From contig DXCM01000091.1 in the NCBI GenBank assembly GCA_019116025.1, forward strand, positions 1-32,862: a stretch of DNA of 32,862 nt. Direction: 5' to 3'. The notes under the pieces were generated by a model. It worked only from the letters and a program-made list of their open reading frames with translations, ran no database searches and was not told the origin of the DNA. This document shows, one piece after another, positions 1 to 18,197 of the stretch (the first letter of the stretch is position 1; each line of letters starts with the position of its first letter). This DNA comes from Candidatus Companilactobacillus pullicola (GTDB taxonomy: Bacteria > Bacillota > Bacilli > Lactobacillales > Lactobacillaceae). The translations under genes and the position numbers were made by a program.

Positions 1-172
1 AAATGTCAACCATAGTGGGACTATAGCAGAACGCTATGGGCACGATTCGGAGCTAATTATTTTACACTTCGTGCAAAATAATTAGCTCCGAAGTCGGCCT
101 TATTGTAATCGGCAAAGCCGATAACAATAATCTCATAGCTGAACGCATTCCCAATTTTTGCTCCGGACTAAA
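1..172 (-). repeat. structured repeat element, copy 1 (possibly cut by window edge)
   Basis: Read on the minus strand this starts with TTTAGTCCGGAGC (172-160) and shares an architecture with copies at 381-546, 17493-17658 and 17993-18197. Visible parts: a 6-bp stem GCTATG (33-38) / CATAGC (134-139); a long hairpin with arms 46-67 and 71-92 (loop TTC, one mismatch); a hairpin 100-130 with a 3-nt AAA loop (UUU on the minus strand) and an A.A (U.U) mismatch six pairs below the loop. The outer stem seen in the other copies is reduced to about TGGGA (16-20) / TCCCA (149-153), so this copy is either degraded there or has a different left end outside the window. No ORF. Function unknown; a structured RNA is an inference. 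Confidence 0.7.
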
Positions 173-380
173 GAGTACTTTGATTGTTTAGTTGGTCAAA
201 TATAATTAGGTATTTAGACTTTGTTTCAAAAAACGTTCTTAATCTAGAAGAAAAAATCTGTATATAACGTGTAATGTGTGTAATAGGTAATATATTTAAT
301 CAGTCTAGAAATATATAATCGATTAGAACCGTTCCAGAAAAAATATAGAAATTAATAAACAGAATAGTACAAATATTTAA
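173..380. other. AT-rich spacer between divergent structured repeats
   Basis: No credible ORF. The first 25 or so bases after the copy-1 motif (up to about 195) resemble the matching position in the second locus (17659-17683), after which similarity fades. Both flanking repeats point outward from this spacer, so it would have to carry any promoters for them. A weak minus-strand candidate is TTGAAA (about 230-225) with an AT-rich -10 region 17 nt further, but I would not call it with confidence. Confidence 0.4.
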
Positions 381-546
381 CCCGGAACAACAAGGCACTA
401 TTGGTCTCAGCCGTGAGATTTTACTTGGTGGGTTTCCCACCTAGTAAAAGACCTGTATTTGAGATAATTGCGAACTTCAATTAGCTCAAATCAGTGTCCA
501 CAGCGTTCCAGACCAATAGCGCCTTGTTGTGGAGGGTGGCATACTT
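381..546 (+). repeat. structured repeat element, copy 2
   Basis: Plus-strand copy of the repeat. Outer stem 387-407 / 510-530 pairs at 20 of 21 positions (only A397.C520 fails). Inside it: GCCGTG (410-415) opposite CACAGC (499-504) with one mismatch; hairpin 419-449 with loop TTT and a T.T mismatch six pairs below the loop; a second hairpin 458-490 (loop 471-477), shorter than in the other copies. The 3' strand between the two main stems carries the conserved GCGTTCC (503-509). After the outer stem comes GGAGG (531-535) and GTGGCATACTT (536-546), an 11-mer found again at 18187-18197. The GGAGG looks like a ribosome binding site, but no ORF follows at the right distance. Confidence 0.8.
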
Positions 547-665
547 AACCAATAAGCTTTTCTGAGGGTTTAGTATTTATTTTCTGTAAAATTAGGGCTT
601 AACTTGAAAAAAAATACTAAAAAACCCATAATTATAGTTAATTAACTTTGTAAGGTGAGAGAAAA

Positions 666-1316
666 ATGGAATTGTATTTTGTCAGACATGGAAAGACCCA
701 ATGGAACTTAGAGGGGAAATATCAAGGTGGACATGGGGATTCACCTTTGTTGTCAGAAAGTATGCACGATATTGGTTTGTTAGCGAAGCGTCTTGAAGAT
801 GTTGAAATTGATCATATGTATTCAAGTCCGCTTCCACGCGCTAAAACAACTGCTGAAACGCTGATTAAAGATTTGCATCGTGACATTGACTTATCCATTG
901 TTGATGATTTACGTGAATTCGATCTAGGAATTATGGAAGGTCGTAAATTTTCAGAATTAGAACGTGAGATGCCTGAGGTTATTTACGCTTTTAGAAATCA
1001 ACCTAAGGATTACGATTATGATTTGATCCGTGGCGAATCTTTTGAAGAAGTGGCTCAAAGAACTACAGGCGCTGTTCAAAGAATTGTTGAAGCTAATAAT
1101 GAAAAGGGTAGTATCGTAATTGTTAGTCATGGTGCTGCTTTAGTTACAATGATTCAGTCATTGTTGGGAACGAAAGTTGACGACATTAGAAAAGATGGCG
1201 GATTGTCGAATACAAGTTTGACGCATTTACAATATAATGATGGCCAATATAAATTGGTTGAATGGAATGAAACAGGTTACTTACATAAGAAACTTGAGAG
1301 TTCCGATACGATTTGA
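666..1316 (+). CDS. histidine phosphatase / phosphoglycerate mutase family protein
   Basis: 216 residues, normal for the small GpmB-like branch. The N-terminal catalytic RHG motif is at residues 7-9 (VRHGKTQWN), followed by the conserved SSPLPRAKTTAE stretch near residue 53 and the second catalytic histidine in IVSHGAALVT near residue 155. The family transfers or removes phosphate through a phosphohistidine intermediate; whether this one is a mutase or a phosphatase on sugar phosphates cannot be told from the motifs. The ATG is preceded by an AAGGTGAGA ribosome binding site. The TPR gene begins 8 nt after its stop, so the two are probably co-transcribed with recD2. The structured repeats lie directly upstream. 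Confidence 0.9.
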   Translation: MELYFVRHGKTQWNLEGKYQGGHGDSPLLSESMHDIGLLAKRLEDVEIDHMYSSPLPRAKTTAETLIKDLHRDIDLSIVDDLREFDLGIMEGRKFSELEREMPEVIYAFRNQPKDYDYDLIRGESFEEVAQRTTGAVQRIVEANNEKGSIVIVSHGAALVTMIQSLLGTKVDDIRKDGGLSNTSLTHLQYNDGQYKLVEWNETGYLHKKLESSDTI

Positions 1317-1324
1317 GGTATTAG

Positions 1325-1987
1325 ATGGATAAAAAAGCAGAAAAATTATTCAACGATGGCAATAAACAGGATGCGATTAAATTATTAGTCGCCGATTTGA
1401 ATAAAAATCCTAAACAGTTGCCGGAAATTTTACAATTGTCGACTTACTTAGTTCAAGCTGGCGATTTAGAACAAGCGGAGGAATTATTAGCTCGTTCGTT
1501 AGAAATGTTCAAGAATAATCAGGATTTACTTTATAATTTAGGAAATGTTTATTATTTGGCTGACAAGTATGATAAAGCTAATCAGATTTTTCAAAGTTTA
1601 ATTGATGACAACTATGCCTTTGAAGCTTATTTTATGATGGCTAAAACATTGGATCAGCAAGGTAAACGTCAATTAGCAATTATGTATGCTTTGACGGCGG
1701 CTGAAAAAGCTCCCAAAGATTTACAAGCTAATGAGTTATTAGCCGATTTATTGCTTGCTAACGGTAATTTTAATGAGGCACTAGGATTTTATAAGGTTGC
1801 CAATGAAATCCAGCCAGAAGCTAAGCATTACTTTAATATGGCATTGTGTGCAATGAATCTAAAGCAAGACTATCAAAACTATTTAAATGAGTCCAAAAAA
1901 TTGGATGAAGCTTACTATGTGAAGCACGAGAAAAAATTAGCTGATCTACAAGAATTTATTAAACAGCAAGGAGATAAGAATGACTGA
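1325..1987 (+). CDS. TPR repeat protein
   Basis: 220 residues made almost wholly of helical tetratricopeptide-like repeats. Typical signatures are LEQAEELLARSLEMF near residue 48, LLYNLGNVYYLADKYDKANQIFQ near 69 and ANGNFNEALGFYKVANEIQP near 145. There is no signal peptide or membrane segment, so it is cytoplasmic and probably a protein-binding scaffold. The partner is unknown. The start has GAGGT a few bases upstream, and the last codons overlap the recD2 start by 8 nt, indicating translational coupling. A TPR protein directly before recD2 is a layout I associate with Firmicutes (from memory), but no function can be assigned. Confidence 0.88.
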   Translation: MDKKAEKLFNDGNKQDAIKLLVADLNKNPKQLPEILQLSTYLVQAGDLEQAEELLARSLEMFKNNQDLLYNLGNVYYLADKYDKANQIFQSLIDDNYAFEAYFMMAKTLDQQGKRQLAIMYALTAAEKAPKDLQANELLADLLLANGNFNEALGFYKVANEIQPEAKHYFNMALCAMNLKQDYQNYLNESKKLDEAYYVKHEKKLADLQEFIKQQGDKND

Positions 1988-4361
1988 AAGTGAGAAGCAG
2001 TATTTTGTGGGTACTGTTAAAGCCATTTTCTTCGAGAACCCTGAAAATCTATTCAAAATCTTTACGATCAAGATCAAAAAAACTAATACTGATTGGGACG
2101 CTAATGATATCGTCGTAACCGGTAGTTTTGGTGAAATCTCGGAAGAAGAAGAATATCGTTTTGAAGGCAATATGGTCGATCATCCAAAATACGGCAAACA
2201 ATTTCAAGCCACTTCTTACAAACGTAGTCGTCCCAGCGGACGTAAAGAGTTGATCAGTTTCTTTTCCAGCGATGAATTTCCTGGGATTGGTAAAAAGAAA
2301 GCTGAAAAAATTGTTGATACACTTGGAGAAAATGCCATCGACAAGATTCTACAGGACCCTCATGCTTTGGATTTTTTGAAATTGGGTGAAGAGAAGACTA
2401 ATAATATCGTTGACCAGATTTCAAAGAATCATTTAACAGAACAAGTTTTGTATCAACTCAATAATTATGGTTTCGGGACTACCTTGAGCGCACGTATTTT
2501 TCAAAAATATGGTCCGCAGACACTGGATAAGATTACAGAAGACCCCTATCAATTAGTTTTAGATGTTAAAGGAGTCGGATTCAAACGTGCTGATGAGTTA
2601 GCCAAGCGATTAGGAATTACTGGCGATGACCCCAGAAGAATCAAAGGAGCCTTGATTCAGATGGTCAGTTTGATCATCAATGAGACAGGTGACACCTATG
2701 TGGCCCAGGATGATTTGATCAAACGAGCTAGTGGTGTCCTTAATGCTAATTCGACTACTGATTTAAATAAGAAACTATTATCAGGATTGAAGAAGTTAGT
2801 CAACGATGGCGTTTTAGCAGTTGAAGACGGTCACGTTTATGAGAAAAATTTATCTGACAGTGAATGGTCGATTGCGCAATCACTCAAAATGATTACCGAT
2901 ACCTTCAAAGGTGTGGAATGGACTAAGCGTGAATTCAAAAAAGAGTTGAAGCATGTTGAAAAAACGTTTAAAGTCCAATACGATGAATCACAGGAAAGGG
3001 CTATCGAACAGTCTTTGACACATTCAATTTTCCTACTAACAGGTGGTCCGGGAACTGGTAAAACTACGATTATTAATGCCATCGTTTCGTCATATGCTAA
3101 GTTAAACGATATGACGTTAGATCCCAGTTCTGAAGATTATGCTATTGCCTTAGCTGCTCCGACTGGACGGGCGGCAAAACATATGGGTGAATCAACCGGT
3201 TTACCTGCGATGACGATTCACCGTTTACTAGGATTGACTGGTACAGAAGACGACGAATTTGCGGAACCAACTTTGGATTGTAAATTATTGATCATTGATG
3301 AGATGTCGATGGTCGATACGAAATTGTTTAGAACTTTGATCAATGCCGTTCAACCGGGAACACAGGTTGTTTTGGTAGGTGATAAGGATCAATTGCCATC
3401 AGTAGGACCAGGACAAGTTTTCTCAGATTTGATCAATAGTGACGCTTTTCCAACAACAATTTTGAATGAAATTCATCGTCAAGATGAGGATTCAACGATT
3501 ATTCAATTAGCGCATGACATCAATGAGGGTATTATTGATGAAGGTATTTTCCAAAATAAAGCTGACCGTAGCTTTATCAATTCCAATAGCCGGAATGTTC
3601 CAGAAGTGTTGTCACAAATTATCAGCAAGTCAGAGGATCGTGGTTTTGATATTGCTGATGTCCAAGTATTAGCACCCATGTATCGAGGACAAGCAGGAAT
3701 TGACAATTTGAATGTTGTCATTCAAAACGTCGTCAATCCTATGGCACCGAAGCGAAAAGAAGTTTCTGTTGGCAATACGAAATATCGTATCAATGATAAA
3801 GTCGTTTATCTGGTCAATTCTCCAGAAGATAATGTCTTTAATGGTGAGATTGGTAAAATTGTCGGAATCTTGTTAGCTAAAGAAAATACTGATCACGTTG
3901 ATAAATTGGTGATCGATTTTGATGGCAACGAAGTCTCCTTGGATCGTAAGGATTGGTTAAATATCTCTTTAGCCTACTGTACTTCGATTCATAAGGCTCA
4001 AGGTTCTGAATTTGAAATGGTTATTCTACCGTTAGTCAATGAAGAATCTCGAATGTTGCGTCGGAATCTATTATATACAGCGGTAACCCGCTCAAGACGT
4101 CTGTTAATCATGGTCGGTGACCGTTCAGCTTTTGAAAGATCGATCCGTGATCAGTCCAACGAACGGCAGACAACTTTAAAAGAACGGATTTTTGCTACAT
4201 TTAAGATTAAGCCTAAAAACGAAGATCCCGAAGAACCAGAAGACAGCGAGCCAATAGATTATCATTTAACCTTGGATATGGTAATGAACAATTCTATTGA
4301 TCCAATGATCGGCATGGACAATGTCACTCCATATAATTTTCTCGAAAAAAATAACGCTTAG
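1980..4361 (+). CDS. recD2: RecD2-type ATP-dependent 5'-3' DNA helicase
   Basis: 793 residues, the length expected for stand-alone RecD2 rather than the RecBCD subunit. The N-terminal region has helix-hairpin-helix motifs (FPGIGKKKAEKIV near residue 100, GVGFKRADELAKRLG near 199). The SF1B helicase core follows: Walker A GGPGTGKTT (about 355-363), Walker B LLIIDEMSMVD, motif III VVLVGDKDQLPSVG, an SH3-like insertion around DKVVYLVNSP, motif V CTSIHKAQGSEF and motif VI YTAVTRSRR. RecD2 unwinds DNA 5' to 3' and contributes to repair and fork restart in bacteria lacking RecBC. The start overlaps the TPR gene by 8 nt; the AAGGAGA upstream serves as ribosome binding site. Confidence 0.95.
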   Translation: MTESEKQYFVGTVKAIFFENPENLFKIFTIKIKKTNTDWDANDIVVTGSFGEISEEEEYRFEGNMVDHPKYGKQFQATSYKRSRPSGRKELISFFSSDEFPGIGKKKAEKIVDTLGENAIDKILQDPHALDFLKLGEEKTNNIVDQISKNHLTEQVLYQLNNYGFGTTLSARIFQKYGPQTLDKITEDPYQLVLDVKGVGFKRADELAKRLGITGDDPRRIKGALIQMVSLIINETGDTYVAQDDLIKRASGVLNANSTTDLNKKLLSGLKKLVNDGVLAVEDGHVYEKNLSDSEWSIAQSLKMITDTFKGVEWTKREFKKELKHVEKTFKVQYDESQERAIEQSLTHSIFLLTGGPGTGKTTIINAIVSSYAKLNDMTLDPSSEDYAIALAAPTGRAAKHMGESTGLPAMTIHRLLGLTGTEDDEFAEPTLDCKLLIIDEMSMVDTKLFRTLINAVQPGTQVVLVGDKDQLPSVGPGQVFSDLINSDAFPTTILNEIHRQDEDSTIIQLAHDINEGIIDEGIFQNKADRSFINSNSRNVPEVLSQIISKSEDRGFDIADVQVLAPMYRGQAGIDNLNVVIQNVVNPMAPKRKEVSVGNTKYRINDKVVYLVNSPEDNVFNGEIGKIVGILLAKENTDHVDKLVIDFDGNEVSLDRKDWLNISLAYCTSIHKAQGSEFEMVILPLVNEESRMLRRNLLYTAVTRSRRLLIMVGDRSAFERSIRDQSNERQTTLKERIFATFKIKPKNEDPEEPEDSEPIDYHLTLDMVMNNSIDPMIGMDNVTPYNFLEKNNA

Positions 4362-4400
4362 TATTATTGAATAAAATAATAATATTTAGAGATTCATATA

Positions 4401-4473
4401 AAAAAGCAGCTTCTATTAGGTATTCAAGGACAAACACGTATGTTCTTGAATCTCTTAATAGGAGCTGCTTTTT
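4401..4473. terminator. two-way terminator between recD2 and the lipid kinase gene
   Basis: A long imperfect hairpin: AAAAAGCAGCT at 4401-4411 pairs with AGCTGCTTTTT at 4463-4473, and CTATTA and TTCAAG pair with TAATAG and CTTGAA further in. The A-run on the left and T-run on the right let it terminate both convergent genes. Confidence 0.85.
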
Positions 4474-4504
4474 ATTTGGTATTTGGATTTTATAATAAGA
4501 TATA

Positions 4505-5458
4505 TTAGGCGTTATTTTTCACGGGTAGCCAGAAAGGATGTTGACTGATTTCAAAATTAAAATCAAATTCATGCTGATTTAATTCCTCACCATCCATTTG
4601 ACCATGCTGGTTAGTATAATTCTTTAATTCAAACTTGTCGGTTTCAATATGCCAAACATTTTTATCTTGCAAGTGTGAACCATTTGTTAATAATTTAGTC
4701 ATCAATTTAGCAAATTTCGGTGTACTGATTTTTTTAACTACTACCAAGTTTAGATGATGATTAAATGGTGTAGCAGTTGGATCAATGGCAAAACCACCCC
4801 CAAAATAAGGATGGTTGGTAGCAACAACGACATATGCAGAATCAAAGTGCTTTTGGTGTTGCTGATAATTGACATCTAATCCAAAAGCTTGTTGACGCTT
4901 CAGTACTTTGAGCAGATTGGTGAAGTAGGAGAGAGTCCCCAATCCTAGACTGTTGAGAAACTCTTTGCGTTCTGAATGATTAGTGTAATAAACAGTACTG
5001 GCGTCAAAGCCGATTCCAATATTATTGATAAAATAATGGGAAAAGTTTTTACTAGTTGCTTTACCAACATCGATCATTCGAGGATTTTTCAAAGAGAGAA
5101 TGGCTTGCATCAGAATAACGGGATCTTTAGTCTTTAATTTGATTCCGCGACAAAAGTCGTTACCAGAACCACCAGGGATATAACCTAAAGCAGTGTCAGG
5201 ATAATTGGATGTTTTAACGCCATTAACCGCCTGATTTAAAGTTCCATCGCCACCGATGACGACAATTTTATCATTTTGGTGTAGGTCGGCTAATTGTTTA
5301 GCAATTCTTTGACCGTCACCGTCACACTTTGTTAAATGAACCTCATAGGGAATATTTTGTTGTCTCAGAAAGTCTGTGACTTTGTTACAAGCTTTTTGGG
5401 CACGTCCGTTTCCAGCGTGATGGTTTAAGATGATTTCGATTCTTTCAGTTTTTTCCAT
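4505..5458 (-). CDS. diacylglycerol kinase catalytic-domain lipid kinase
   Basis: 317 residues, usual for the DagK/YegS-like soluble lipid kinases. The nucleotide-binding motif GGDGTLNQAVNG starts at residue 69, and the conserved PGGSGNDFCRG is at 95-105. The family phosphorylates diacylglycerol or related lipids with ATP at the inner face of the membrane, recycling lipids from wall and teichoic acid synthesis; the actual substrate here is not determined. The ATG at 5458 has only an AAGGG-like ribosome binding site. A terminator separates it from rnjA upstream, so it is partly or wholly its own unit. Confidence 0.88.
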   Translation of the reverse strand: MEKTERIEIILNHHAGNGRAQKACNKVTDFLRQQNIPYEVHLTKCDGDGQRIAKQLADLHQNDKIVVIGGDGTLNQAVNGVKTSNYPDTALGYIPGGSGNDFCRGIKLKTKDPVILMQAILSLKNPRMIDVGKATSKNFSHYFINNIGIGFDASTVYYTNHSERKEFLNSLGLGTLSYFTNLLKVLKRQQAFGLDVNYQQHQKHFDSAYVVVATNHPYFGGGFAIDPTATPFNHHLNLVVVKKISTPKFAKLMTKLLTNGSHLQDKNVWHIETDKFELKNYTNQHGQMDGEELNQHEFDFNFEISQHPFWLPVKNNA

Positions 5459-5471
5459 TTTATAACCCTTA

Positions 5472-5502
5472 AATAAAAAAAGTAGATCAAGTGATCTACT
5501 TT
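5472..5502 (-). terminator. terminator after rnjA
   Basis: Read on the minus strand: an 11-bp perfect stem (AAAGTAGATCA / TGATCTACTTT, 5502-5479) followed by a T-rich run, starting 10 nt after the rnjA stop. Confidence 0.85.
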
Positions 5503-5512
5503 AAAATTGAAT

Positions 5513-7204
5513 TTAGATTGAAGTACCAATTAGCATTGGTAAGATAACAGGATTTCTTTCAGTACGTTTGTAAAGGAATTCTTGTAATCCTTCAATGATA
5601 ACACGTTTCAGCACTGCTTCGGTTACTTTAGTTTCTTCATCGTCAAAGGCATTCTTGATCAAGTGGAAGACACGTTTTTGTGCTTGATTGATCAATTCAC
5701 CTGACTCACGCATATAGACAAATCCACGTGAAAGAATATCAGGACCAGCTAAAACGATATGTTTTTGATAATCGATAGTTGCTACAACTACGACCATTCC
5801 TTCCTCAGAAAGAACTTGACGATCATGGATAACAACATTACCGATATCACCAACACCTTTACCGTCGACATAAACATCGCCAGCAGGGAAGTGACCTGCA
5901 ACTCGTGCATTGTCCTTAGTCAAAGCTAAGACATCACCATTTTCTAGTAAGAATGAGTGATCTTGAGGAACGTCACACAATTCAGCTAATTCTGTGTGAA
6001 TCTTCAACATACGATATTCACCGTGAATTGGCATGAAGAACTTAGGTTTCATTAAACGAAGCATCAACTCTTGTTCCTCTTGACCACCGTGTCCTGAAGC
6101 ATGGATGTTGTTAACTTTACCATGAATAACTTCAGCACCAGCTTCTGATAATTGGTTGATCAAGTGGTTAACACTGATTGTATTACCAGGAATTGGATTA
6201 CTTGAGAAGATAACAGTATCTCCAGGTTGAATAGTGATCTGTCTATGTGTTCCGTTAGCGATACGGCTCAAAGCAGCTAATGGTTCACCTTGAGAACCAG
6301 TACATAGAATCAAAGTTTCACTAGCAGGTGTTTGATTCAAGGCGTGTGGGTCGATCAACATATCATCAGAGATATTTAGATAACCTAGTTCACGTCCATT
6401 TTCGATTGCTTGTTCCATACTTCGTCCAAAGACCGCAATCTTTCGACCTTGTTGGATAGCAGCATCAACTGCTTGAGAAATACGATAAATATTAGAAGCA
6501 AAGGTAGCAAAAATAATTCTGCCATTGATAGTTTCGAATATTTGATGAATTGTTAAACCAACTGAACGTTCAGACTTTGAAAATGTAGGAATTTCTGCAT
6601 TTGTACTATCTGATAGTAAACATAAAACACCCTTTTGTCCCAAGGCAGCCATCTTTTGTAGGTTAGGGGATGGTAGGCCAGCAACTGGAGTTAAATCAAA
6701 TTTGAAATCACCAGTTTCAACGATAATACCTTGAGGCGTATGAACAGCAACACCTAAAGTATCAGGAATAGAGTGAGTAGTTCTGAAGAAAGAAACGCTT
6801 GTCTTAGGGAATTTGATAACATCATCTTCGTGCAAGACATGCATTTCTGTAGTTCTTAATAAGCCATGCTCTTCCAATTTACCCTTGATCAATGCACATG
6901 CCAATGGACCGGCGTAAACAGGGATGTTTGGAAGTTGTTGGAGTAGATAAGGAATACCACCAATGTGATCTTCGTGACCATGAGTGATGAATAATCCCTT
7001 GATCTTGTCCTTGTTTTCTACTAAGTAACTGTAATCAGAAATGACGTAGTCAATTCCTAGAAGTTCATCTTCGGGAAATTTAATTCCGGCATCAATAACG
7101 ATCAGTTCGTCTTGATATTGAACTCCATACATATTTTTACCGATTTCACCAAGGCCCCCGATGGCAAAAACAGCAACTTCATTATTTTTAACTTTAAATG
7201 ACAT
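5513..7204 (-). CDS. rnjA: ribonuclease J1
   Basis: 563 residues; metallo-beta-lactamase/beta-CASP ribonuclease with endonuclease and 5'-3' exonuclease activity, central to mRNA decay and rRNA maturation in Firmicutes. All metal ligands are visible: HGHEDH at residues 75-80, the histidine in TTHSIP (H144), the aspartate in TGDFKFD (D166) and the histidine in [10 protein letters not shown]. The beta-CASP part includes [16 protein letters not shown] and [10 protein letters not shown]. It starts 3 nt after the rpoY stop on the same strand, a pairing conserved in Firmicutes. Its paralogue RNase J2 is at 28560-30257 and lacks two of these histidines. Confidence 0.96.
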
Positions 7205-7207
7205 TAA

Positions 7208-7420
7208 TTAAAACTCCGTCAATTTAAAATCAGGGCTCTTCTTTTCGTACTCTAAGTGTTTTTCGTCGAGTTCCTGAATAAATTCAATGTTATAGTCAGT
7301 ATTTTTTTCAACTGCTTCACGGACGGCAATGTTTGATTCTGCATCCATGTATAGTGAATGTGTAAATTCACGACGGGGGTTATCTAGTTCGCTTGTTTGA
7401 TATAAAACTTTATAAATCAA
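7208..7420 (-). CDS. rpoY: RNA polymerase epsilon subunit
   Basis: 70 residues, matching the small YkzG/DUF1447 family (MIYKVLYQ start, conserved acidic middle). RpoY is an accessory RNA polymerase subunit found in Firmicutes and is characteristically encoded just before rnjA, as here. The first codon is TTG (7420-7418), supported by AAAGGAG nine bases upstream; no ATG is available nearby. It lies in an operon with rnjA. Confidence 0.93.
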   Translation of the reverse strand: MIYKVLYQTSELDNPRREFTHSLYMDAESNIAVREAVEKNTDYNIEFIQELDEKHLEYEKKSPDFKLTEF

Positions 7421-7446
7421 TATAATTTTCTCCTTTAAATCGAATT

Positions 7447-7470
7447 AAATGAAACAGGTCAGTTTCATTT
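7447..7470 (-). promoter_or_regulatory. hairpin in the rpoY-rnjA leader
   Basis: Perfect 9-bp stem AAATGAAAC (7447-7455) / GTTTCATTT (7462-7470) with a 6-nt loop, between the predicted promoter and the ribosome binding site of rpoY. No T-run follows it on the minus strand, so it is not an obvious terminator. It could stabilise or regulate the leader. Further upstream is another dyad, TTGTGC (7490-7495) / GCACAA (7511-7516). Confidence 0.4.
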
Positions 7471-7515
7471 GACGTTTTTTCTAGTCCATTTGTGCGTTAA
7501 TCAATAGATAGCACA

Positions 7516-7526
7516 ATTCTACCATA
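7516..7526 (-). promoter_or_regulatory. extended -10 promoter for rpoY-rnjA
   Basis: Minus strand TATGGTAGAAT contains TGG directly before TAGAAT, an extended -10 element, with no good -35 at the expected place. The same 11-mer lies before rnjB (28451-28461). It is embedded in the dyad TACCAT/ATGGTA (7520-7525, 7533-7538). Confidence 0.55.
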
Positions 7527-7557
7527 TATAAAATGGTAAGTATACTTGAAGACTATA

Positions 7558-8118
7558 TTAAGAAATCACAACAGTACTTGGGTCAAGCGTGAATGGTTCT
7601 TTCTTATTAATCTTGTCGTAATATAGGTGACCATTCAAATGGTCAATTTCATGTTGACAAACGATGGCAGGGTAACCTTTAACACGTAGTGTCTGAGAAT
7701 TTCCTTCAAAATCATCATATTTAATAGTAATACGATCTGCACGTGGAACGAATCCAGGAACATCTTTATCAACTGATAGGCAACCTTCACCCTCAGATAA
7801 GGCAGCTTTTTGAACTGAGTTTCTGACGATAACAGGATTGATTAGAGTGATTTTTAGAAGAGGCTTGTCAGGATCTTCTTCATTAGGTACTAAGACAGCG
7901 GCCATCATTTCTGAAACACCAACTTGAGGAGCGGCCAAACCGACACCAGCACGTAATTGATGTTTTTCAGCGTAATCTTCATCTTGACTCTTAACAAGAT
8001 ATTCCATCATATTAGCGGCTAAGGCTTTGTCTTCGTCACTCAATGGAAATTTAACATCTGCTGCAACTTTTCTTAAAACGGGATCGCCATCACGGACGAT
8101 ATCTTTCATAAAATACAT
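7558..8118 (-). CDS. def: peptide deformylase (type II)
   Basis: 186 residues, the longer type II form of Gram-positive bacteria. It removes the formyl group from the starting methionine of nascent proteins using a metal bound by the cysteine of EGCLSV and the two histidines of [10 protein letters not shown]; motif 1 [10 protein letters not shown] is also present. The first ATG (8118) is chosen because GGAGG stands 5 nt upstream; a second ATG three codons later has no matching spacing. It is divergent from ldhD and is followed at 137 nt by rpoY with no clear terminator, so read-through into rpoY-rnjA is possible. Confidence 0.96.
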
Positions 8119-8164
8119 AGTTTCCTCCGAATGTTTAATTGTATAAAAATACTTCAGTATATCT

Positions 8165-8170
8165 ATTATA
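8165..8170 (-). promoter_or_regulatory. -10 box for def
   Basis: Perfect TATAAT on the minus strand about 47 nt before the def ATG. A recognisable -35 at 16-18 nt is missing. Confidence 0.4.
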
Positions 8171-8225
8171 GATTATTTTGCCTAAAAAATAGAAGTATTT
8201 GGAAAAAAAGCTGTCTGATAATATT

Positions 8226-10584: not shown

Positions 10585-10586
10585 AA

Positions 10587-11564
10587 ATGGCTAAGAAAAC
10601 TTACATTCAAGCAATTACAGACGCCTTAGACATCGTTCTTGAAGATGATCCAAAAACTTTGATCTTTGGTGAAGACGTTGGTAAAAACGGTGGTGTTTTC
10701 AGAACGACTCAAGGGCTTCAAGAAAAATATGGTGAAGACCGTGTATTCGATACACCTTTAGCTGAATCAGGAATTTTAGGTTTAGCAACTGGATTGGGCC
10801 TAACTGGATGGCGTCCAATTCCAGAAATTCAATTTATGGGATTCTCACTTGAAGCTGTTGACCAAATTATTGGTCAAGAAGCTAGAATGCGTTTCCGTTT
10901 TGACGGACTAAGAACATCCCCTGTAACAATTCGTACACCTTATGGTGGTGGTACTCATACTGCTGAAATGCATGCTGATAATCTAGAAAATATCTTTGCA
11001 AGCACACCAGGTCTACGTGTTGTTATGCCAAGTAACCCATACGATGCTAAGGGACTATTGATTTCATCTGTTGAAAATAACGATCCTGTTCTATTTATGG
11101 AAAACTTGAAGTTATATCGTTCAATGAAAGATGACATTCCTGATGGCAAGTATACTGTACCTTTGGACAAGGCAAATGTTGCCCGTGAAGGTAATGATAT
11201 TACAATCGTTGCTTACGGTGCTGAAGTAAATGAAGCATTGAAAGTTGCTGACGATTTAGCTAAAAAGAATATCTCTGTTGAAGTTATTGATCTTAGAACT
11301 GTTTCACCAATTGATACAGATACAATTTTCAAATCAATCGAAAAGACTCATAAAGTAGTTATCGTTCAAGAAGCACAAAAGATAGCTGGTGTGGGCGCAC
11401 AAGTTGCCTCAGCTATTGCCGAGGACGCGGTTCTTTCTCTTGATGCACCAATTGGTAGAGTTGCAGCTCCAAATAGTGTATATCCATTTGCTTTAGGTGA
11501 GGACATTTGGATTCCACGTGCAAAAGAAATTGAAGAAAAAGTAAATGAAATTCTCAACTACTAA
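10587..11564 (+). CDS. pdhB: pyruvate dehydrogenase E1 component, beta subunit
   Basis: 325 residues, full family length. It pairs with PdhA in the E1 heterotetramer and supplies the pyrimidine-binding domain of the cofactor site. Typical features are [18 protein letters not shown] near residue 27, [18 protein letters not shown] near 53, and the C-terminal transketolase domain with [11 protein letters not shown] and the [21 protein letters not shown] stretch. The start lies 2 nt after the pdhA stop, with its ribosome binding site (AAAGGAG) inside the end of pdhA, so translation is coupled. Confidence 0.96.
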
Positions 11565-11590
11565 TTAGATCGAAGGAAGGGAATCCAACT

Positions 11591-12877
11591 ATGGCTTACA
11601 AATTTAAATTACCTGAACTAGGCGAAGGGATGGCCGAAGGTGAAATTGCCAGCTGGCTAGTAAAAGAAGGAGACACAGTTAAAGAAGATGACTCCTTAGT
11701 AGAAATTCAAAATGATAAATCAGTTGAAGAATTGCCTTCACCTGTTGCTGGTACAGTTAAACAAATTGTTGCGCAAGAGGGAGACACTGTTGAAATTGGA
11801 GACACATTGATTGTTATTGATGACGGCTCTCCTGATACAGGTGACGATGATCAACCAGCTAAGGATGATAAAGAAGCTGACAAGTCAGAACAAAAGGATG
11901 AAAGTAACTCAGAACAAGCACCAGCAACAGCCGGACCTGCTACTGGATCAGCTGATACTAATTACTTAGCAATGCCTTCAGTTCGTCAATATGCTCGTGA
12001 TAAGGGTGTCGATTTGGCAAAGGTCACACCTAGTGGCAAACATGGACAAATCACTAAAGCTGATGTTGACTCATTCGATGGAAGTGCTGCACCACAAACA
12101 GCCGCTCCTGCAGCAGCTGCAGCACCACAGGCACCAGCAAATACAATTACACCATACAAGTCTGCTACTCCAGAGCTTGAGACACGTGAGAAGATGTCTA
12201 TGACTAGAAAAGCTATTGCTAAGGCAATGCTCAATAGTAAGCACACAGCTCCACACGTAACTAGTTTTGATGACGTTGAAGTAAGCGCTTTAATGGCTAA
12301 CCGTAAGAAGTATAAAGCAATCGCTGCTGATAAGGACATTCATCTAACATTCTTACCTTATATTGTTAAGGCTTTGGTAGCCGTAATGAAGGCATATCCA
12401 GAATTGAATGCTTCAATCGATGATTCTACAGAAGAAATCGTCTACAAGCACTATTACAATGTAGGTATTGCTACTAATACAGAACATGGACTTTATGTTC
12501 CAAATGTTAAGAACGTTGATTCCAAAGGTATGTTTGAAATTGCCAAAGAAATCACTGAAAACTCACAAGCTGCTTATGACAACAAGTTGAGTATGGATAA
12601 GATGTCCGGTGGATCAATCACAATTAGTAATGTTGGTTCTATCGGTGGTGGCTGGTTCACACCAGTTATCAATTACCCAGAAGTAGCAATCCTTGGTGTC
12701 GGTAAGATTGCTAAAGAACCTTATGTTGATGAGGATGGCAACATTCAAGTAGGTAATATGTTGAAGTTATCATTGAGTTATGATCACAGATTAATTGATG
12801 GTGCATTGGCTCAGAATGCTTTGAATCTATTGAAGAAATTGTTGCATGATCCAGATATGTTATTAATGGAGGGCTAG
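11591..12877 (+). CDS. pdhC: pyruvate dehydrogenase E2, dihydrolipoamide acetyltransferase
   Basis: 428 residues. Order of domains: one lipoyl domain (1-78) with the lipoylated lysine K43 in NDKSVEE; a flexible acidic linker; the E1/E3-binding domain (about 126-162, MPSVRQYARDKGVDLAKV); an Ala/Pro-rich linker (about 165-187); and the acyltransferase domain ending in SYDHRLIDG with catalytic H399 and D403. E2 forms the core of the complex and passes the acetyl group to CoA. Having one lipoyl domain is common in Firmicutes. The ribosome binding site is GGAAGGG. Confidence 0.96.
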   Translation: MAYKFKLPELGEGMAEGEIASWLVKEGDTVKEDDSLVEIQNDKSVEELPSPVAGTVKQIVAQEGDTVEIGDTLIVIDDGSPDTGDDDQPAKDDKEADKSEQKDESNSEQAPATAGPATGSADTNYLAMPSVRQYARDKGVDLAKVTPSGKHGQITKADVDSFDGSAAPQTAAPAAAAAPQAPANTITPYKSATPELETREKMSMTRKAIAKAMLNSKHTAPHVTSFDDVEVSALMANRKKYKAIAADKDIHLTFLPYIVKALVAVMKAYPELNASIDDSTEEIVYKHYYNVGIATNTEHGLYVPNVKNVDSKGMFEIAKEITENSQAAYDNKLSMDKMSGGSITISNVGSIGGGWFTPVINYPEVAILGVGKIAKEPYVDEDGNIQVGNMLKLSLSYDHRLIDGALAQNALNLLKKLLHDPDMLLMEG

Positions 12878-12882
12878 TTAAC

Positions 12883-14310
12883 ATGGCAGAAGACGTAATA
12901 GAAAAAGATACCGTTATTATTGGTTCCGGCCCTGGTGGTTACGTTGCAGCAATCAGAGCTTCAGAATTAGGACAAGATGTTACTATCATTGAAAAATCAG
13001 ATACCGTTGGTGGTGTTTGTCTAAATGTTGGTTGTGTGCCATCAAAAGCTTTAATTACAGCTGGACACAGACTTCAACAAGCTAAAGACTCATCAACTTA
13101 TGGAATTACCACAAGTGATGCCACAATTGATTTTACTAAGACACAAGCTTGGAAAGATGAAAAAGTTGTTGCCAGAATGACTGGCGGTGTACAAATGCTT
13201 TTGAAGAAGCATCATGTTGAATTGATCAACGGTGAAGCTTATCTAGACAGTGATACACAATTAAGAGTTATGCCAAGTGGTCCTAGACAATTCATGGACA
13301 ACGGTGGTGGACAAACTATCAAGTTCAAGCATTTGATTTTGGCAACTGGTAGTCGTCCTATCGAAATCAGAGGATTCAAGTTCGATGACCGCGTGATTGA
13401 TTCAACTGGTGGTTTGAACTTGAAAGAAGTTCCAAAGGAATTCGTCATCATTGGTGGTGGCTATGTCGGAACAGAATTAGCTGGAGCATATGCTGATCTA
13501 GGTTCTCATGTAACTATCCTTGAAGGTTCACCTAACATTATTCCTAACTTTGAAAAAGATATGGTCTCAATCGTTAAGAAGAACCTTGAAAAGAAGGGCG
13601 TTACAATCATTACTAACGCTATGGCTAAGAAGAGTGAAAACAAAGGCGATAGTGTTGAAGTAACTTATGAAGTCGATGGTAAACCAACAACAATCAGTGC
13701 TGATTATTGTATGGTAACTGTTGGTCGTCGTCCAAACACAGATAACTTTGGCCTTGAAATGACTAATGTTAAGTTGACTGATAAGGGTCTAGTTGAAGTA
13801 GACGAACAAGGTAAGACTTCAGTTGATAATATTTATGCAATTGGTGATATTACACCGGGACCAGCTTTGGCTCACAAGGCATTCTTTGAGGCTAAGACAG
13901 TTGCTGGAGCAATCTCTGGCAAAAACACTGCAAACGACTATATTGGCGTTCCAGCAGTTTGTTTCACTGATCCAGAACTAGCTAGCGTTGGTTTGACAGA
14001 ACAAGATGCTAAGGATAAAGGAATTGAAGTTAAAGTAGCTAAATTCCCATTTGCCGGAAATGCACGTGCTGTTTCACTTGATGCTGCTGAAGGATTCGTT
14101 AAATTAGTTGCTCAAAAAGACACTGGCACACTATTGGGTGGACAAATTGTCGGACCTGGAGCTAGTGACTTGATTTCTGAGTTGAGTGTGGCTGTTAACT
14201 GTCAACTCAATGCTGAAGATATTGCTCTAACGATTCATCCACATCCAACATTGGGTGAACCTATTCAAGAAGCTGCCGATATGTTAATTGGTTTCCCAAC
14301 ACACATTTAA
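12883..14310 (+). CDS. pdhD: dihydrolipoyl dehydrogenase (E3)
   Basis: 475 residues. It reoxidises the E2 dihydrolipoyl group with FAD and NAD. The FAD-binding GSGPGG is at 14-19, the redox-active disulfide is C46/C51 in GGVCLNVGCVPSK, the NAD-binding motif is IIGGGYVGTELAGAYADLG near 189, and the C-terminal HPHPTLGE (about 452-459) carries the catalytic histidine. It begins 5 nt after pdhC with the ribosome binding site GGAGG inside pdhC. Last gene of the operon. Confidence 0.97.
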   Translation: MAEDVIEKDTVIIGSGPGGYVAAIRASELGQDVTIIEKSDTVGGVCLNVGCVPSKALITAGHRLQQAKDSSTYGITTSDATIDFTKTQAWKDEKVVARMTGGVQMLLKKHHVELINGEAYLDSDTQLRVMPSGPRQFMDNGGGQTIKFKHLILATGSRPIEIRGFKFDDRVIDSTGGLNLKEVPKEFVIIGGGYVGTELAGAYADLGSHVTILEGSPNIIPNFEKDMVSIVKKNLEKKGVTIITNAMAKKSENKGDSVEVTYEVDGKPTTISADYCMVTVGRRPNTDNFGLEMTNVKLTDKGLVEVDEQGKTSVDNIYAIGDITPGPALAHKAFFEAKTVAGAISGKNTANDYIGVPAVCFTDPELASVGLTEQDAKDKGIEVKVAKFPFAGNARAVSLDAAEGFVKLVAQKDTGTLLGGQIVGPGASDLISELSVAVNCQLNAEDIALTIHPHPTLGEPIQEAADMLIGFPTHI

Positions 14311-14381
14311 TAGAAAAAGGGAAGAACGTTTAGAAACCGAAAAGAGGATTTTTCGTATACTAAATTAATTATTTCCGTATA

Positions 14382-14410
14382 AAAGCGATGCAATTGTATC
14401 GCTTTTTTTG
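14382..14410 (+). terminator. terminator of the pdh operon
   Basis: AAAAGCGAT (14382-14390) / ATCGCTTTT (14399-14407), 8-nt loop, T-run to 14410. It lies 70 nt after the pdhD stop. Confidence 0.85.
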
Positions 14411-14441
14411 TATAGTAGAGTAAAAATGAAGGGAGTTATCA

Positions 14442-14732
14442 ATGCATAATTACAGTTATCCCCTTGATGAAACATGGTCACAAGATGACATTGTTAAAGT
14501 AATTGCTTTGTATAATGCGGTCGAAAAGGCCTATGAATCAAGTATTAAAAGTGATGAATTTTTGCAGAAATATCGCGCATTCCAACAAGTTGTCCCAATG
14601 AAGATGGAACAAAAGAAATTAGATAAAGAGTTTGAACTTGAGTCAGGTTATTCTATTTATCAGGTGTTTAAAATGAGTCGTGCGGCAAAAAAAGGCGAGA
14701 AAGTAAGGATTCATAATGACAGTAGACAGTAA
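14442..14732 (+). CDS. UPF0223 family protein
   Basis: 96 residues, matching the small YktA/UPF0223 family of Firmicutes (conserved YPLDETWSQDDIVKVIALYNA start and SGYSIYQVFKMSR near residue 69). Function is unknown; it looks like a soluble helical protein. ATG with AAGGGAG 7 nt upstream. Its end overlaps the next gene by 17 nt, and the same pairing with an inositol-phosphatase-family gene is, to my knowledge, common in related genera, suggesting a shared role. Confidence 0.88.
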   Translation: MHNYSYPLDETWSQDDIVKVIALYNAVEKAYESSIKSDEFLQKYRAFQQVVPMKMEQKKLDKEFELESGYSIYQVFKMSRAAKKGEKVRIHNDSRQ

Positions 14733-15495
14733 AGAAATAGATGAATTTCTAGTAAAGCTTTTAAGAAATGTTGGTGAAAGCTTAAAAGACGATGCCCTGA
14801 AGAAAAAATCAGTCGATACTAAAAAGAATCGAAACGATTTAGTAACAAATTTTGACAAAAAAACAGAGCGCTATATTAATTCAGAACTTAAAGAGGCTTT
14901 TCCTGAAGCTACGATCGTTAGTGAAGAAGGCTATGGTGATTTAGTTACCGATATGTCAGGACTAGTATTTTTTGTTGATCCAATCGACGGTACGATGAAT
15001 TTTGTTAAACGCGGTGATGATTTTGCATCCATGATTGGCGTTTACATTGATGGAAAACCATTAATTGGTGCTATTATAGATGTTATGGGTAATAACATTT
15101 ACCACGGCGGTAAAGAAATTGGCTTGTTCATTAATGATGAGAAAATAGATGCTCCTAAGAATTTGTCTTTAGTTGAAGGTTTAGTTGATGTATCCGCACC
15201 AATGGCTTTAGCTAATAGATTTAATGTTCAGGACGTTATTAAAAAAAGCAGTGGTTATAGGGTTTATGGAAGTGCAGGAATTATTTTCGGTCATCTCCTG
15301 ACTGGAAAAGAAGTCATGTATATGTCATACTTAGCACCATGGGATTTGGCTGCAGGACGTGTTTTGTGTGAAGCTGCAGGTATGGACGTAGTAAGTATTG
15401 ACGATACACCAATAAATATGCTAAAATCACAAGTCGTAATAGTTGGTACTCAGAAAGTTGTTTCTGAAGCACTGACGACAGTCAAAACGCGTTAG
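14716..15495 (+). CDS. inositol monophosphatase family protein
   Basis: 259 residues. The three metal-site signatures of the FIG superfamily are present: VSEEGYGD near residue 73, DPIDGTMNF near 93, and APWDLAAGR near 211. These enzymes use magnesium to cleave sugar or inositol phosphates (SuhB-like); the true substrate in lactobacilli is unclear. It starts within the last 17 nt of the UPF0223 gene, with AAGGA upstream, and ends 3 nt before a strong terminator. Confidence 0.9.
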   Translation: MTVDSKEIDEFLVKLLRNVGESLKDDALKKKSVDTKKNRNDLVTNFDKKTERYINSELKEAFPEATIVSEEGYGDLVTDMSGLVFFVDPIDGTMNFVKRGDDFASMIGVYIDGKPLIGAIIDVMGNNIYHGGKEIGLFINDEKIDAPKNLSLVEGLVDVSAPMALANRFNVQDVIKKSSGYRVYGSAGIIFGHLLTGKEVMYMSYLAPWDLAAGRVLCEAAGMDVVSIDDTPINMLKSQVVIVGTQKVVSEALTTVKTR

Positions 15496-15497
15496 TG

Positions 15498-15525
15498 AAC
15501 TGTGAGAGGTTTCACAGTTTTTTTA
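15498..15525 (+). terminator. terminator after the inositol phosphatase gene
   Basis: AACTGTGA (15498-15505) / TCACAGTT (15512-15519), 6-nt loop, followed by a T-run. Confidence 0.9.
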
Positions 15526-15568
15526 TTGCAAGTAATTTAAACACGTATTTATGGAAGGAAGAACTAAT

Positions 15569-17410
15569 TTGACTAAGAGAAGAGAAGATATTAGAAACAT
15601 TGCGATCATCGCTCACGTTGACCACGGTAAAACTACATTAGTTAACGAAATGTTAAAACAATCAGACACACTAGGATCACATTATGAAATTCAAGATCGT
15701 GCCCTTGATTCAAATGCTATTGAAAGAGAACGTGGTATCACAATCCTTTCTAAGAATACTGCTGTTGATTACGATGGCAAGAAGATCAACATTTTGGATA
15801 CACCAGGACACGCGGACTTCGGTGGTGAAGTTGAACGTATCATGAAGATGGTTGATGGTGTACTTTTGGTTGTTGATGCTTATGAGGGTACAATGCCACA
15901 AACACGTTTCGTGTTGAAGAAGGCTTTGGAACAACATCTAACACCAATCGTTGTTATCAACAAAATTGATAGACCAGGTGCTCGTCCTGCCGAAGTAGTT
16001 GACGAAGTTCTTGAATTATTTATCGAATTAGGCGCTGATGACTCACAACTTGATTTCCCAGTTGTTTATGCTTCAGCTATCAACGGAACATCAAGTTACT
16101 CAGATGATCCTGCTGACCAAGAACACACAATGAACCCTATCTTTGATACAATTTTGAAGACAATTCCTGCACCAATCGACAACTCAGACGAACCATTACA
16201 ATTCCAAGTTGCCTTACTAGATTACAACGATTATGTTGGTCGTATTGGTATCGGACGTGTGTTCCGTGGAAAGATCAAGGTTGGTGACAGTGTTACTGTT
16301 ATGAAGCTTGACGGTTCTACAAAGAACTTCCGTGTTACAAAGCTATTTGGTTTCCTAGGTTTGAACCGTGTTGAAATCAACGAAGCTAAGGCCGGAGACT
16401 TAATTGCCGTTTCCGGTATGGAAGATATCTATGTTGGTGAAACAGTTACACCAGTTGATCATCAAGAAGCTTTACCATTATTGCGTATTGATGAACCAAC
16501 ACTACAAATGACTTTCTTACAAAATAACTCACCATTCGCTGGTCGTGAAGGTACAGAAGTTACTGCTAGAAAGATCGAAGATCGTTTAAGAAGACAACTA
16601 CATACTGATGTTTCACTTAAAGTTGAAAATACTGACCAAGCTGGTTCATGGCTAGTTTCAGGTCGTGGTGAACTTCACTTGTCAATTCTTGTTGAAGAAA
16701 TGCGTCGTGAAGGTTTCGAATTACAACTATCACGTCCAGAAGTTATTTACAAGACAATCGACAACCAAAAGTGCGAACCTTTTGAAGAGGTAACAATCGA
16801 TACACCTGATGAATACGTTGGTTCAGTTATTGACTCAATGTCACAACGTAAGGGTGATATGGAAAACATGGAAAGTACTGGTAATGGTCAAACAAGACTT
16901 ATTTTCTCAGCACCTTCACGTGGTTTGATCGGTTACTCTACAGAGTTCTTATCAATGACTGGTGGTTATGGTATCTTGAACCACACATTCTCAGAATACA
17001 AACCAGTTGTTAGAAACTGGAACCCAGGTAGAAGAACTGGTGCTTTGGTTTCAATCAACCAAGGTCCATCAACAACATACTCACTACAATCAGTTGAAGA
17101 TCGTGGTACATTGTTCATCGGTGCCGGTGTTGATGTATATGAAGGTATGATCGTTGGTGAAAGTAGTCGTGATCAAGATATCGCTGTTACTGTTACTAAG
17201 GGTAAGAACCTTACAAATACTCGTGCTTCTGGTAAAGATCATGCTGCTGCAATCAAGACTCCTAAGGCAATGTCACTTGAACAATCAATCGAATTCCTAA
17301 ACGAAGACGAACTTTGTGAAGTAACACCTAAGAGTGTAAGATTACGTAAGAAGATCTTGAACACAAACGAACGTAAGAAGTTCGATAAGACAAAGAAAAT
17401 GTCAAAATAG
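15569..17410 (+). CDS. typA: translational GTPase TypA/BipA
   Basis: 613 residues when started at the TTG at 15569. That start is preferred because GGAAGGAAG lies just upstream and the product then begins like other TypA proteins (about 612 residues); the in-frame ATG at 15551 has no ribosome binding site. GTPase motifs are [30 protein letters not shown] and NKIDRPGA, followed by EF-G-like domains and the TypA-specific C-terminal domain ([20 protein letters not shown]). It binds ribosomes and assists their assembly and stress adaptation. Codon use is that of a highly expressed gene. No clear promoter was found in the 43 nt after the preceding terminator. Confidence 0.96.
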
Positions 17411-17422
17411 TTAATTATTTAT

Positions 17423-17459
17423 GAAGCTAGGGATGGTCTAATCCCTGGCTTCTTTTTTT
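17423..17459 (+). terminator. terminator after typA
   Basis: GAAGCTAGGGAT (17423-17434) / ATCCCTGGCTTC (17441-17452) with one T.G wobble, 6-nt loop and seven Ts. Confidence 0.93.
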
Positions 17460-17492
17460 GTTTTGAGAGGGATGCGCTTGATGCCGTCTTCC

Positions 17493-17658
17493 ATAAAACT
17501 TGGGAATGCATTGGAACGCTGTGGGCGCGATTTGAAGCTAATTATTTCACACTTCGTGCAAAATAATGGATCTTCAAAATCGGCCTCATTGTAAATGGCA
17601 AAGCCATTAACAATGATTTCACAGCTGAATGCATTCCCAAGTTTTATTCCAGACTAAA
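17493..17658 (-). repeat. structured repeat element, copy 3
   Basis: Minus-strand copy. It begins with TTTAGTCTGGA (17658-17648). The outer stem is a perfect 20-bp pairing of 17493-17512 with 17628-17647. The inner 6-bp stem is GCTGTG (17518-17523) / CACAGC (17620-17625). The hairpin 17586-17616 has a 3-nt AAA loop and the same A.A (U.U on the minus strand) mismatch as copy 1, but with different paired bases (AATGGC/GCCATT instead of ATCGGC/GCCGAT). The other hairpin (about 17531-17576) is imperfect. It points toward typA. The minus-strand tail after the outer stem (GGAAGACGGCATC) resembles that of copies 2 and 4. Confidence 0.8.
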
Positions 17659-17992
17659 TCCTAGTTTAATTGTTTGGTTAGAGTATTGAAAAAGGGGTTG
17701 TTCTATTCTTTGATAGGAAGCCCATTAATAATAACTCCGACTTGCATACTGTTCTGCTTAATTCAAGACCTTGATGGTATTTGTTAAAAACATTAATATG
17801 GCAAATGATGTAATTTTGGGTCGATACCAGTATTTTTATCAAATTAGAATGAACAGTGAATAGAATTATAATTCGTTCAGAACAACATTTTTTGTTTTTG
17901 GTTGTGGCGTTAATACTAACGGATGTGCTTGATTTTCTAAATAGAGGTTGTTTTCTATTTAGGTTTAATAATGACCGATAAATAAAGCTGGA
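17659..17992. other. spacer between divergent structured repeats, no gene seen
   Basis: 334 nt of AT-rich sequence. An open frame on the minus strand (17678-18028) runs through it and into copy 4, but has no ribosome binding site or recognisable product. A 9-bp hairpin CTAAATAGA (17937-17945) / TCTATTTAG (17954-17962) is present just before copy 4. Only the first 25 nt resemble the spacer of the first locus. Confidence 0.5.
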
Positions 17993-18197
17993 TTTAGTCC
18001 GGAGCAACAAGAAAATTGGCCCAGCCATGAAATTTACCTTGGCAATTTATTGCCTAGGTAAAGGCCGAGCTTTAAGCTAATAATTTTGCACAACGTGCAA
18101 AATTATTAGCTTAAAGTCGTGCCCATGGCGTTCCGGCCAAATTTTCTTGTTGTGGAGGACGGAAATTTAAGCATATTCTTCAGAGAGTGGCATACTT
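17993..18197 (+). repeat. structured repeat element, copy 4
   Basis: Plus-strand copy beginning with TTTAGTCCGGAGC (17993-18005). Outer stem 18005-18021 / 18135-18152 has 17 pairs and one bulged A, and is unrelated in sequence to copy 3. Inner stem GCCATG (18024-18029) / CATGGC (18124-18129) is perfect. First hairpin 18033-18062 has a T.T mismatch below the loop. Second hairpin is a perfect 22-bp stem (18070-18091 / 18095-18116, loop AAC). GCGTTCC follows at 18128-18134. The tail has GGAGG (18153-18157) and, after an extra stretch, GTGGCATACTT at 18187-18197, identical to 536-546. Confidence 0.82.

Follow-up and report, generated by a model that had tools for sequence, protein, structure and literature searches.

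The window analysed here is the complete 32,862-nt stretch of contig DXCM01000091.1 from Candidatus Companilactobacillus pullicola (assembly GCA_019116025.1). It carries four related structured elements, termed modules c1 to c4, which lie as two divergent pairs: c1 with c2 (unit 1) and c3 with c4 (unit 2). Module c1 is interrupted by an insertion sequence (IS) at the contig end. Same-strand genes follow modules c2 and c4 at distances of 121 and 141 nt. By eye, unit 2, which lies between typA and ftsW, starts where the T-run of the typA terminator ends. FtsW shares 96-97% identity with its counterparts in C. kimchii and C. paralimentarius, which places the genome in Companilactobacillus. Each pair of modules probably forms the inner arms of a small Lactobacillaceae element that is transposon-like, carries no genes, resembles a miniature inverted-repeat transposable element (MITE) and has its own parasite. 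An earlier note on this DNA had placed four related elements here, and all four were recovered by covariance-model search (cmsearch; Table 1), c1 spanning about 1-175 with the IS end included. Scores were 139, 141, 209 and 164 bits for c1 to c4.

Table 1. Positions and parts of the modules and units in the window (P0 to P4, stems of the module fold)
Feature	Position	Strand	Description and basis
IS3-family insertion sequence, left end (TGCTATAGTCCC... on minus strand)	1..28	-	inside module c1; contig end
Module c1	29..175	-	subtype A, cut by the IS; lacks P1 3′ strand, GGA loop and P0 3′ strand
Unit 1 spacer	176..372	.	between divergent c1 and c2; cmsearch coordinates; spacer folded
Module c2	373..545	+	subtype B, short P4, C.A mismatch in P2; 140.9 bits, fold
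Unit 2, whole	17458..18228	.	c3, spacer, c4 and tails; read by eye, ends approximate to a few bases
Module c3	17478..17661	-	subtype A, 20-pair outer stem; 209.3 bits, fold
Unit 2 spacer	17662..17989	.	terminator-like hairpins inside; folding
Module c4	17990..18168	+	subtype B with long P4; 164.1 bits, fold, tree
c4 P0 5′ strand GTCC	17997..18000	+	pairs with 18157-18160 GGAC
c4 GGA of symmetric GGA/GGA internal loop	18001..18003	+	partner 18154-18156
c4 CA side of CA/GUUCC internal loop	18022..18023	+	conservation in 44 sequences
c4 P2 5′ strand GCCATG	18024..18029	+	pairs with 18124-18129 CATGGC
c4 P3 hairpin of three-way junction	18033..18062	+	fold, covariation
c4 P4 hairpin of three-way junction	18063..18122	+	length varies most between subtypes
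c4 GUUCC loop	18130..18134	+	93-98% conserved; IS3-type target GTTC^C

Full-length modules are branched and 147-190 nt long. At the base is a 4-bp stem (P0, GTCC/GGAC-like), separated by a GGA/GGA internal loop from a long variable stem. A CA/GUUCC internal loop follows, then a 6-bp stem (P2) and a three-way junction with two hairpins (P3 and P4). The order of parts described in the earlier note was recovered in the folds of c2, c3 and c4. In c1 it is broken by the IS, and this copy is without the outer-stem 3′ strand and the GGAGG tail that had been ascribed to every copy. The outer stem has 20 pairs in c3, 20 with one mismatch in c2 and, instead of the reported 17, 18 with one bulge in c4. 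These stems had been thought wholly unrelated in sequence; c1 and c3 have TTGGGAATGC in common, and CAACAAG occurs at the base in both c2 and c4. The 6-bp stem reads GCTATG/CATAGC in c1, GCTGTG/CACAGC in c3 and GCCATG/CATGGC in c4, as noted before, and GCCGTG/CACAGC with a C.A mismatch in c2. Copy 4, formerly drawn to 18197, ends near 18168, and 18169-18197 is a tail. Module c2 forms its own branch in the module tree. A conserved YTAG-like tag stands 5′ of the hairpin in many copies.

A covariance model was built from 30 copies of the C. pullicola genome, its alignment including c2, c3 and c4 and not c1. In these 30 copies, 40 of 65 pairs were altered on both sides, with pairing intact, in one sequence or more, and the GGA of the 5′ side was invariant. 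A further alignment of 44 sequences from 27 loci, in the genus and six others, was fitted to the model. Here 57 of the 65 pairs were changed on both sides and 96.8% of cells pair; double-changed cells numbered 728, where shuffling gave a mean of 199 (sd 12) and slid controls gave 96-141. P0 pairs (helix 1) were retained with changes on both sides. The unpaired letters are also conserved across these seven genera: C at 93% and A at 98% in CA, and GUUCC at 93-98%. The compensatory changes claimed before thus run much deeper than was claimed. The explanation then offered, that selection acts on folded RNA or DNA, is plausible; hairpin-templated repair and inter-copy conversion also give matched changes.

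G-U pairs were rare (52 of 2373 cells). Their counts against C-A (52 against 30 in one comparison and 34 against 9 in another) lean to the strand on which the model was built. The strand with TTTAGTC first folded better in 47 of 49 A modules, 16 of 18 B modules and 20 of 28 copies of other genera. The strand test treats related copies as independent, which makes its P values too small, and the bias was therefore taken as support and not as proof.

At least 150 module copies were found in the Companilactobacillus genome by the covariance-model search, where a family of four had been proposed; the weakest five among the matches listed scored 41-71 bits, and some matches were partial. Modules were matched in 34 of 36 genomes of the genus (G002 and G020 had no match), in 47 of 201 Lactobacillaceae genomes (11 of 40 genera) and in 3 of 198 genomes drawn from the order, all three Lactobacillaceae. 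The C. pullicola genome is counted each time, and the 201- and 198-genome searches used stricter filters than the genus search. In about 402 kb of C. pullicola DNA, 52 of 8974 element bases lay inside open reading frames (ORFs) of at least 150 aa, which cover 81% of the DNA; one element in 49 overlapped such an ORF by more than 20 nt. Neighbouring genes, with ORFs called mechanically, were varied and stood in tandem, convergent and divergent settings.

Partial module matches were obtained on plasmids of Companilactobacillus, Pediococcus, Levilactobacillus and Lactiplantibacillus; two other queries and the unit end sequence had no match among plasmid records. A phage origin was set aside, as c3, the only module tried, had no match among phage records. 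At the Rfam gathering score there were no matches in the window, and among 13 sources of other loci the sole match was a T-box beside a module, with none on modules. For Rfam, this agrees with the earlier note, which could not match the elements to a named family; weak matches to the drum and SSRC8_2 families were far below gathering scores and were rejected. A literature search, with most subscription papers and bioRxiv outside its scope, found no description of this repeat. The T-box leader, in another genus, lies just downstream of a module (L158:1758-1964). Also in another genus (L161, L170), an extra outer stem (GCGCTTGCGCA...GGTTGC-like) was seen by eye around a single module.

The arrangement in transposon-like units, which was absent from the earlier note together with the IS that breaks copy 1, is dominated by divergent pairs with inverted ends. 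All 24 pairs of neighbours within 700 nt among the matches listed were divergent, with 130-445 nt between modules. With weaker matches included, 22 of 23 neighbours within 350 nt were divergent in the 402 kb of C. pullicola; in other species 13 of 15 within 700 nt were, and 10 of 10 in a further set. The best-preserved units were found in genome G004; in these, inverted ends enclose a reversed B module, followed by a spacer that holds a terminator-like hairpin and then by an A module. Nine distinct units there (13 rows, some repeated) measured 433-706 bp with the outermost 11 nt not counted. Most have ends like GGYTCTTWCTCAAGTTTGGTTRTAGYGTGAGTA on both sides (also written GGYTCTTWCTCAAGTTTGG). 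All nine carry the inner part of the end pattern at either end, whereas the terminal bases are decayed in L196 and L197. Six aligned units share the B module, a central hairpin preceded by an A-run and followed by a T-run, and the A module, plus the ends where covered. Nine A and eight B modules of G004 were 94-95% alike, compared with 86-88% for the adjoining 90 nt of spacer and 75-77% for the nearest 30 nt. The units in this species are young.

In C. pullicola the ends are mostly decayed: 7 end-pattern matches were found (control 3) against 35 in G004 (control 2). Divergent pairs of other genera carry other ends (CTAAAGGTTGAAAG in G223, CTARAACTGTTAT in G187). The units are gene-less by size (433-706 bp), not every spacer having been examined for a transposase. 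Strong terminator-like hairpins were present in 9 (forward) and 12 (reverse) of 21 C. pullicola spacers, with 2 and 5 in shuffles (one each). In a long spacer at C96, an ORF considered as a transposase proved to be a VEG-family host gene; it lies between a unit with a truncated A module and a further A module (L118:14200-15400, C96 at about 94.2-95.4 kb). Within the c3-c4 spacer, window positions 17904-17945 resemble, by eye, the outer tail of another B module, which suggests a putative remnant of a nested insertion.

Insertion between genes involves the whole unit. In C. kimchii, C. paralimentarius and G001 the typA-ftsW interval is free of the c3-c4 unit, and a weaker match was obtained near ftsW in two species that are more distant (L084, 50 bits; L090, 47 bits). 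Sixteen of 17 C. pullicola flanks were matched in two relatives, giving 30 loci, of which 24 had no module match at the site (E 0.01 or less). Among these relative loci L131 and L140 have a match about 1.4 kb off, and short remnants were seen by eye in L129 and L136. At C93f one side alone aligns in relatives. Exact 8-bp duplications (8/8) flank the unit at C. pullicola site C96 (AAGATAAG) and at L214 of G223 (ATTTAAAA). These duplications, together with the inverted ends, point to a transposase of the DDE type.

Several observations weigh against the reading as arms of a mobile transposon-like unit. The exact 8-bp duplication was found at two sites only, several others being near-matches by eye; L196, L197 and L217 have no clear duplication, and the c3-c4 unit reaches 5/7 at best. 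No autonomous copy or transposase with unit ends was found, only PF01610 and PF12762 having been searched. The ends differ among G004, G223 and G187, so one common mover is unlikely. The neighbours that were not divergent comprise one minus-minus case in the 402 kb (a 36-bit partial match) among the 23 within 350 nt, and two tandem cases in other species (L065, L167) among the 15 within 700 nt. Strong terminator-like hairpins were not present in all 21 C. pullicola spacers. One inner deletion of module A, with loss of P3 and P4, is common to four G004 units, so these two hairpins seem unneeded for spread; the four units (L184, L188, L196, L209) seem to have spread in the deleted form. Two candidate parents gained no support. 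A parent of the ISL3 type had been suspected from the end sequence; PF01610 had no match in C. pullicola, and two matches in G004 were without the ends (best 13 mismatches in 33). An IS1595-type parent (PF12762) had no match in three genomes.

The GUUCC loop is used by an IS. One and the same IS was found at one module point, after GCGTTC, in copy 1 and in L017. The end of this IS occurs 7 times in the C. pullicola genome, all 7 directly after the GTTC of a module (GTTC^C), in modules of more than one subtype and in one orientation. Its genes, seen in L017, match PF01527/PF13518 and PF00665/PF13276, corresponding to the orfA helix-turn-helix and orfB rve integrase core of the IS3 family. Relatives in the genus were sought at E 1e-60 or less. 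The G005 relative (76% identical; G005a) was at GTTC^C in 5 of 5 copies with a TTC duplication and the G029 relative (63%) in 3 of 3; the G009 relative (54%) was exactly at GTTC^C in 2 of 6, with three beside module-like sequence (by eye) and one elsewhere. In these three other species 10 of 14 copies were therefore at GTTC^C. The TTC duplication of IS3-type insertions was found in G005, G029 and G009. Right ends of the IS were not seen in the C. pullicola genome, and the 3-bp duplications come from other species. A further IS (57%), split off as a group afterwards, was off GTTC^C in 6 of 6 G005 copies and in the one C. pullicola copy. Over all IS copies examined 17 of 28 were at GTTC^C, and 17 of 21 without the 57% group. 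By eye, copies of the 57% IS (L256 and L258-L262 in G005; L247, which is C. pullicola C19) lie mostly in terminator-like hairpins, two of them beside modules, and this IS3-family element is possibly a terminator-seeking IS.

In the 402 kb of C. pullicola, 34% of CGTTCC hexamers lie in modules on the right strand. The chance of 15 of 15 insertions falling in modules by the letters CGTTCC alone is about 1e-7, and with a 10-position context (CAYNNCGTTC) it is 0.04, so recognition may be by sequence; the letter-context figures were derived from C. pullicola DNA, and 8 of the 15 insertions to which they were applied lie in other genomes. Insertions at the same loop point and in the same orientation were seen in four species (window 1-28; L234-L240; L242, L245, L249, L252, L254; L243, L246, L250; L244, L257). 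A fixed target in repetitive extragenic palindromic (REP) sequences is described for IS1397 and ISKpn1 (PMC1525189). At the genome level, the fixed IS3-type target hints that the cell contains the module as a distinct target.

The module arms keep a fold. Likeness was 87.1% among C. pullicola A modules (30 of the 49 were compared) and 73.6% among B modules, with flanks at 39-54% and shuffled flanks at 35%. At a locus shared by three species of another genus, between phosphotransferase system (PTS) IIA and glycosyl hydrolase family 1 genes, likeness was 83-92% for the modules, 87-94% for coding DNA and 45-85% for the spacer, against 38% after shuffling. For the closest pair the spacer (85%) nearly equals the modules (89-92%). 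Among genus orthologs at C31 the outer flanks were 94% and 88% alike and the spacer 85%, with 65% for the left module, which is of a different subtype, and 80% for the right module. The right module is missing in G028. With its ortholog the C. pullicola A module at C31 shares 83.0%, less than the 89.6% that it shares with a copy 5 kb away. Inter-copy replacement thus takes place, and constraint may act as well; C31 alone was counted as a clean replacement because the flanks also differ at C56b and C96a.

Under the proposed mechanism, a transposase acting in trans, by its traces of the DDE type, would move the whole unit into intergenic spaces. The central hairpin would probably end transcription from both sides, so that intergenic insertion would be tolerated. 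Each module of about 150-190 nt would fold, better on one strand, into a branched hairpin. The sameness of the C. pullicola modules despite decayed ends and spacers would most likely come from a mix of constraint on the folded DNA or RNA, hairpin-templated repair and inter-copy conversion. In the GUUCC loop a specialised parasite of the IS3 family would have its fixed point of insertion, as IS1397 has in REP palindromes. Inner deletions, perhaps by slippage between short repeats, would give short forms such as the one at four G004 sites.

Two other accounts of the conserved fold were each judged possible and somewhat doubtful. The modules could be functional RNAs, acting in cis or in trans and selected at each site, with mobility explaining their spread alone. 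The conserved unpaired CA and GUUCC letters in 44 sequences of seven genera, the better folding of one strand and the likeness of modules over spacer at the PTS IIA locus are in keeping with this. The closest PTS IIA pair, where the spacer is nearly as alike as the modules, the varied gene context and the few G-U pairs speak against it; 52 of 2373 cells is a low G-U share for RNA stems. At C31 both modules are less conserved than the spacer and the outer flanks, so there is no strict site-by-site constraint there. The same low G-U share is compatible with neutral debris, in which covariation and sameness would arise without function from template-switch repair of palindrome arms plus inter-copy conversion, and this account stands at a similarly tentative level. 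That template switching can produce matched changes in hairpins has been published (PMC8794818). Replacement of a subtype at C31 with both flanks kept, and the closer match there to the copy 5 kb away, also favour it; it leaves unexplained the asymmetric internal loops, whose letters are conserved in seven genera, and the likeness of modules among units with different ends and spacers. An unlikely extension is that the branched module is a cassette, swapped between copies by structure-guided exchange while its shell, the P0 stem and GGA/GGA loop, stays fixed. This reading comes from one clean orthologous site, C31, those at C56b and C96a not being clean. If true, the cassette would be a new mobile part distinct from its carrier unit, and its exchange would explain wholesale letter change in the variable stem while the flanks stay.

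Two further possibilities concern how the modules move or act. Movement as single-stranded DNA by a hairpin-reading Y1 transposase of the REP-associated tyrosine transposase (RAYT) type, as for the REP doublets termed REPINs, was judged improbable. High copy number, extragenic position, inverted pairs, the YTAG-like tag and IS3-type parasites recall REPs and REPINs as described in PMC3116915 and PMC1525189; the 8-bp duplications and inverted ends point instead to a DDE transposase, and REPs are given as 20-40 bp (PMC3733652) against 147-190 nt for the modules. Least credible was a riboswitch-like cis-regulatory leader of downstream genes, for which the positions of c2 and c4 ahead of same-strand genes and of a module ahead of the glycosyl hydrolase family 1 gene in three species could be cited. 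Modules also face gene ends, occur in mixed orientations beside unrelated genes at 150 sites or more, and have no Rfam match; a regulator of one gene class was rejected on these mixed contexts.

The MITE-like units share with MITEs their short, gene-less and intergenic nature, high copy number, inverted ends, duplication at some sites and whole-unit insertion. They differ in that each arm is a branched module of about 150-190 nt found in 11 genera, with ends differing between genera, and in that no parent IS was found among the two families searched (PF01610 and PF12762). Since the ends and duplication fit MITEs and the conserved branched arms do not, the family was placed with MITE/REP-like repeats. 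To our knowledge, a divergent pair of three-way-junction modules is not known for BOX, RUP or SPRITE elements. These repeats of Streptococcus pneumoniae, likened here by description only, are likewise structured and intergenic and belong to a related bacterium (PMC3049150, PMC10969869).

With REPs, bacterial interspersed mosaic elements (BIMEs) and REPINs with their RAYTs, the modules share extragenic inverted foldable pairs on a hundred-copy scale and, as described for IS1397 and ISKpn1, IS3-family parasites (PMC3116915, PMC2817692). The inverted doublet is also the spreading unit in both, as indicated by the uniformly divergent C. pullicola pairs among the matches listed. They differ in having large three-way-junction modules where palindromes of 20-40 bp are described (PMC3733652), in the 8-bp duplication at two sites and in pairs usually made of different subtypes. 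The parasite is akin to IS1397 and ISKpn1 as an IS3-family element whose target is fixed and lies within a foldable, dispersed repeat (PMC1525189), and differs from them in targeting the GUUCC internal loop of a large Gram-positive module with a TTC duplication.

With no Rfam match on the modules examined and no description in the literature searched, the repeat family appears to be new. Its depth, with 11 of 40 genera sampled and at least 150 copies in one genome, would aid annotation of many lactobacilli. Several contigs end in an IS inside a module, and such insertions would explain assembly breaks. The orthologous copies allow a clean test that weighs selection against template switching and conversion as sources of RNA-like covariation. 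The family would represent a Gram-positive counterpart to REP/BIME repeats with a far richer fold.

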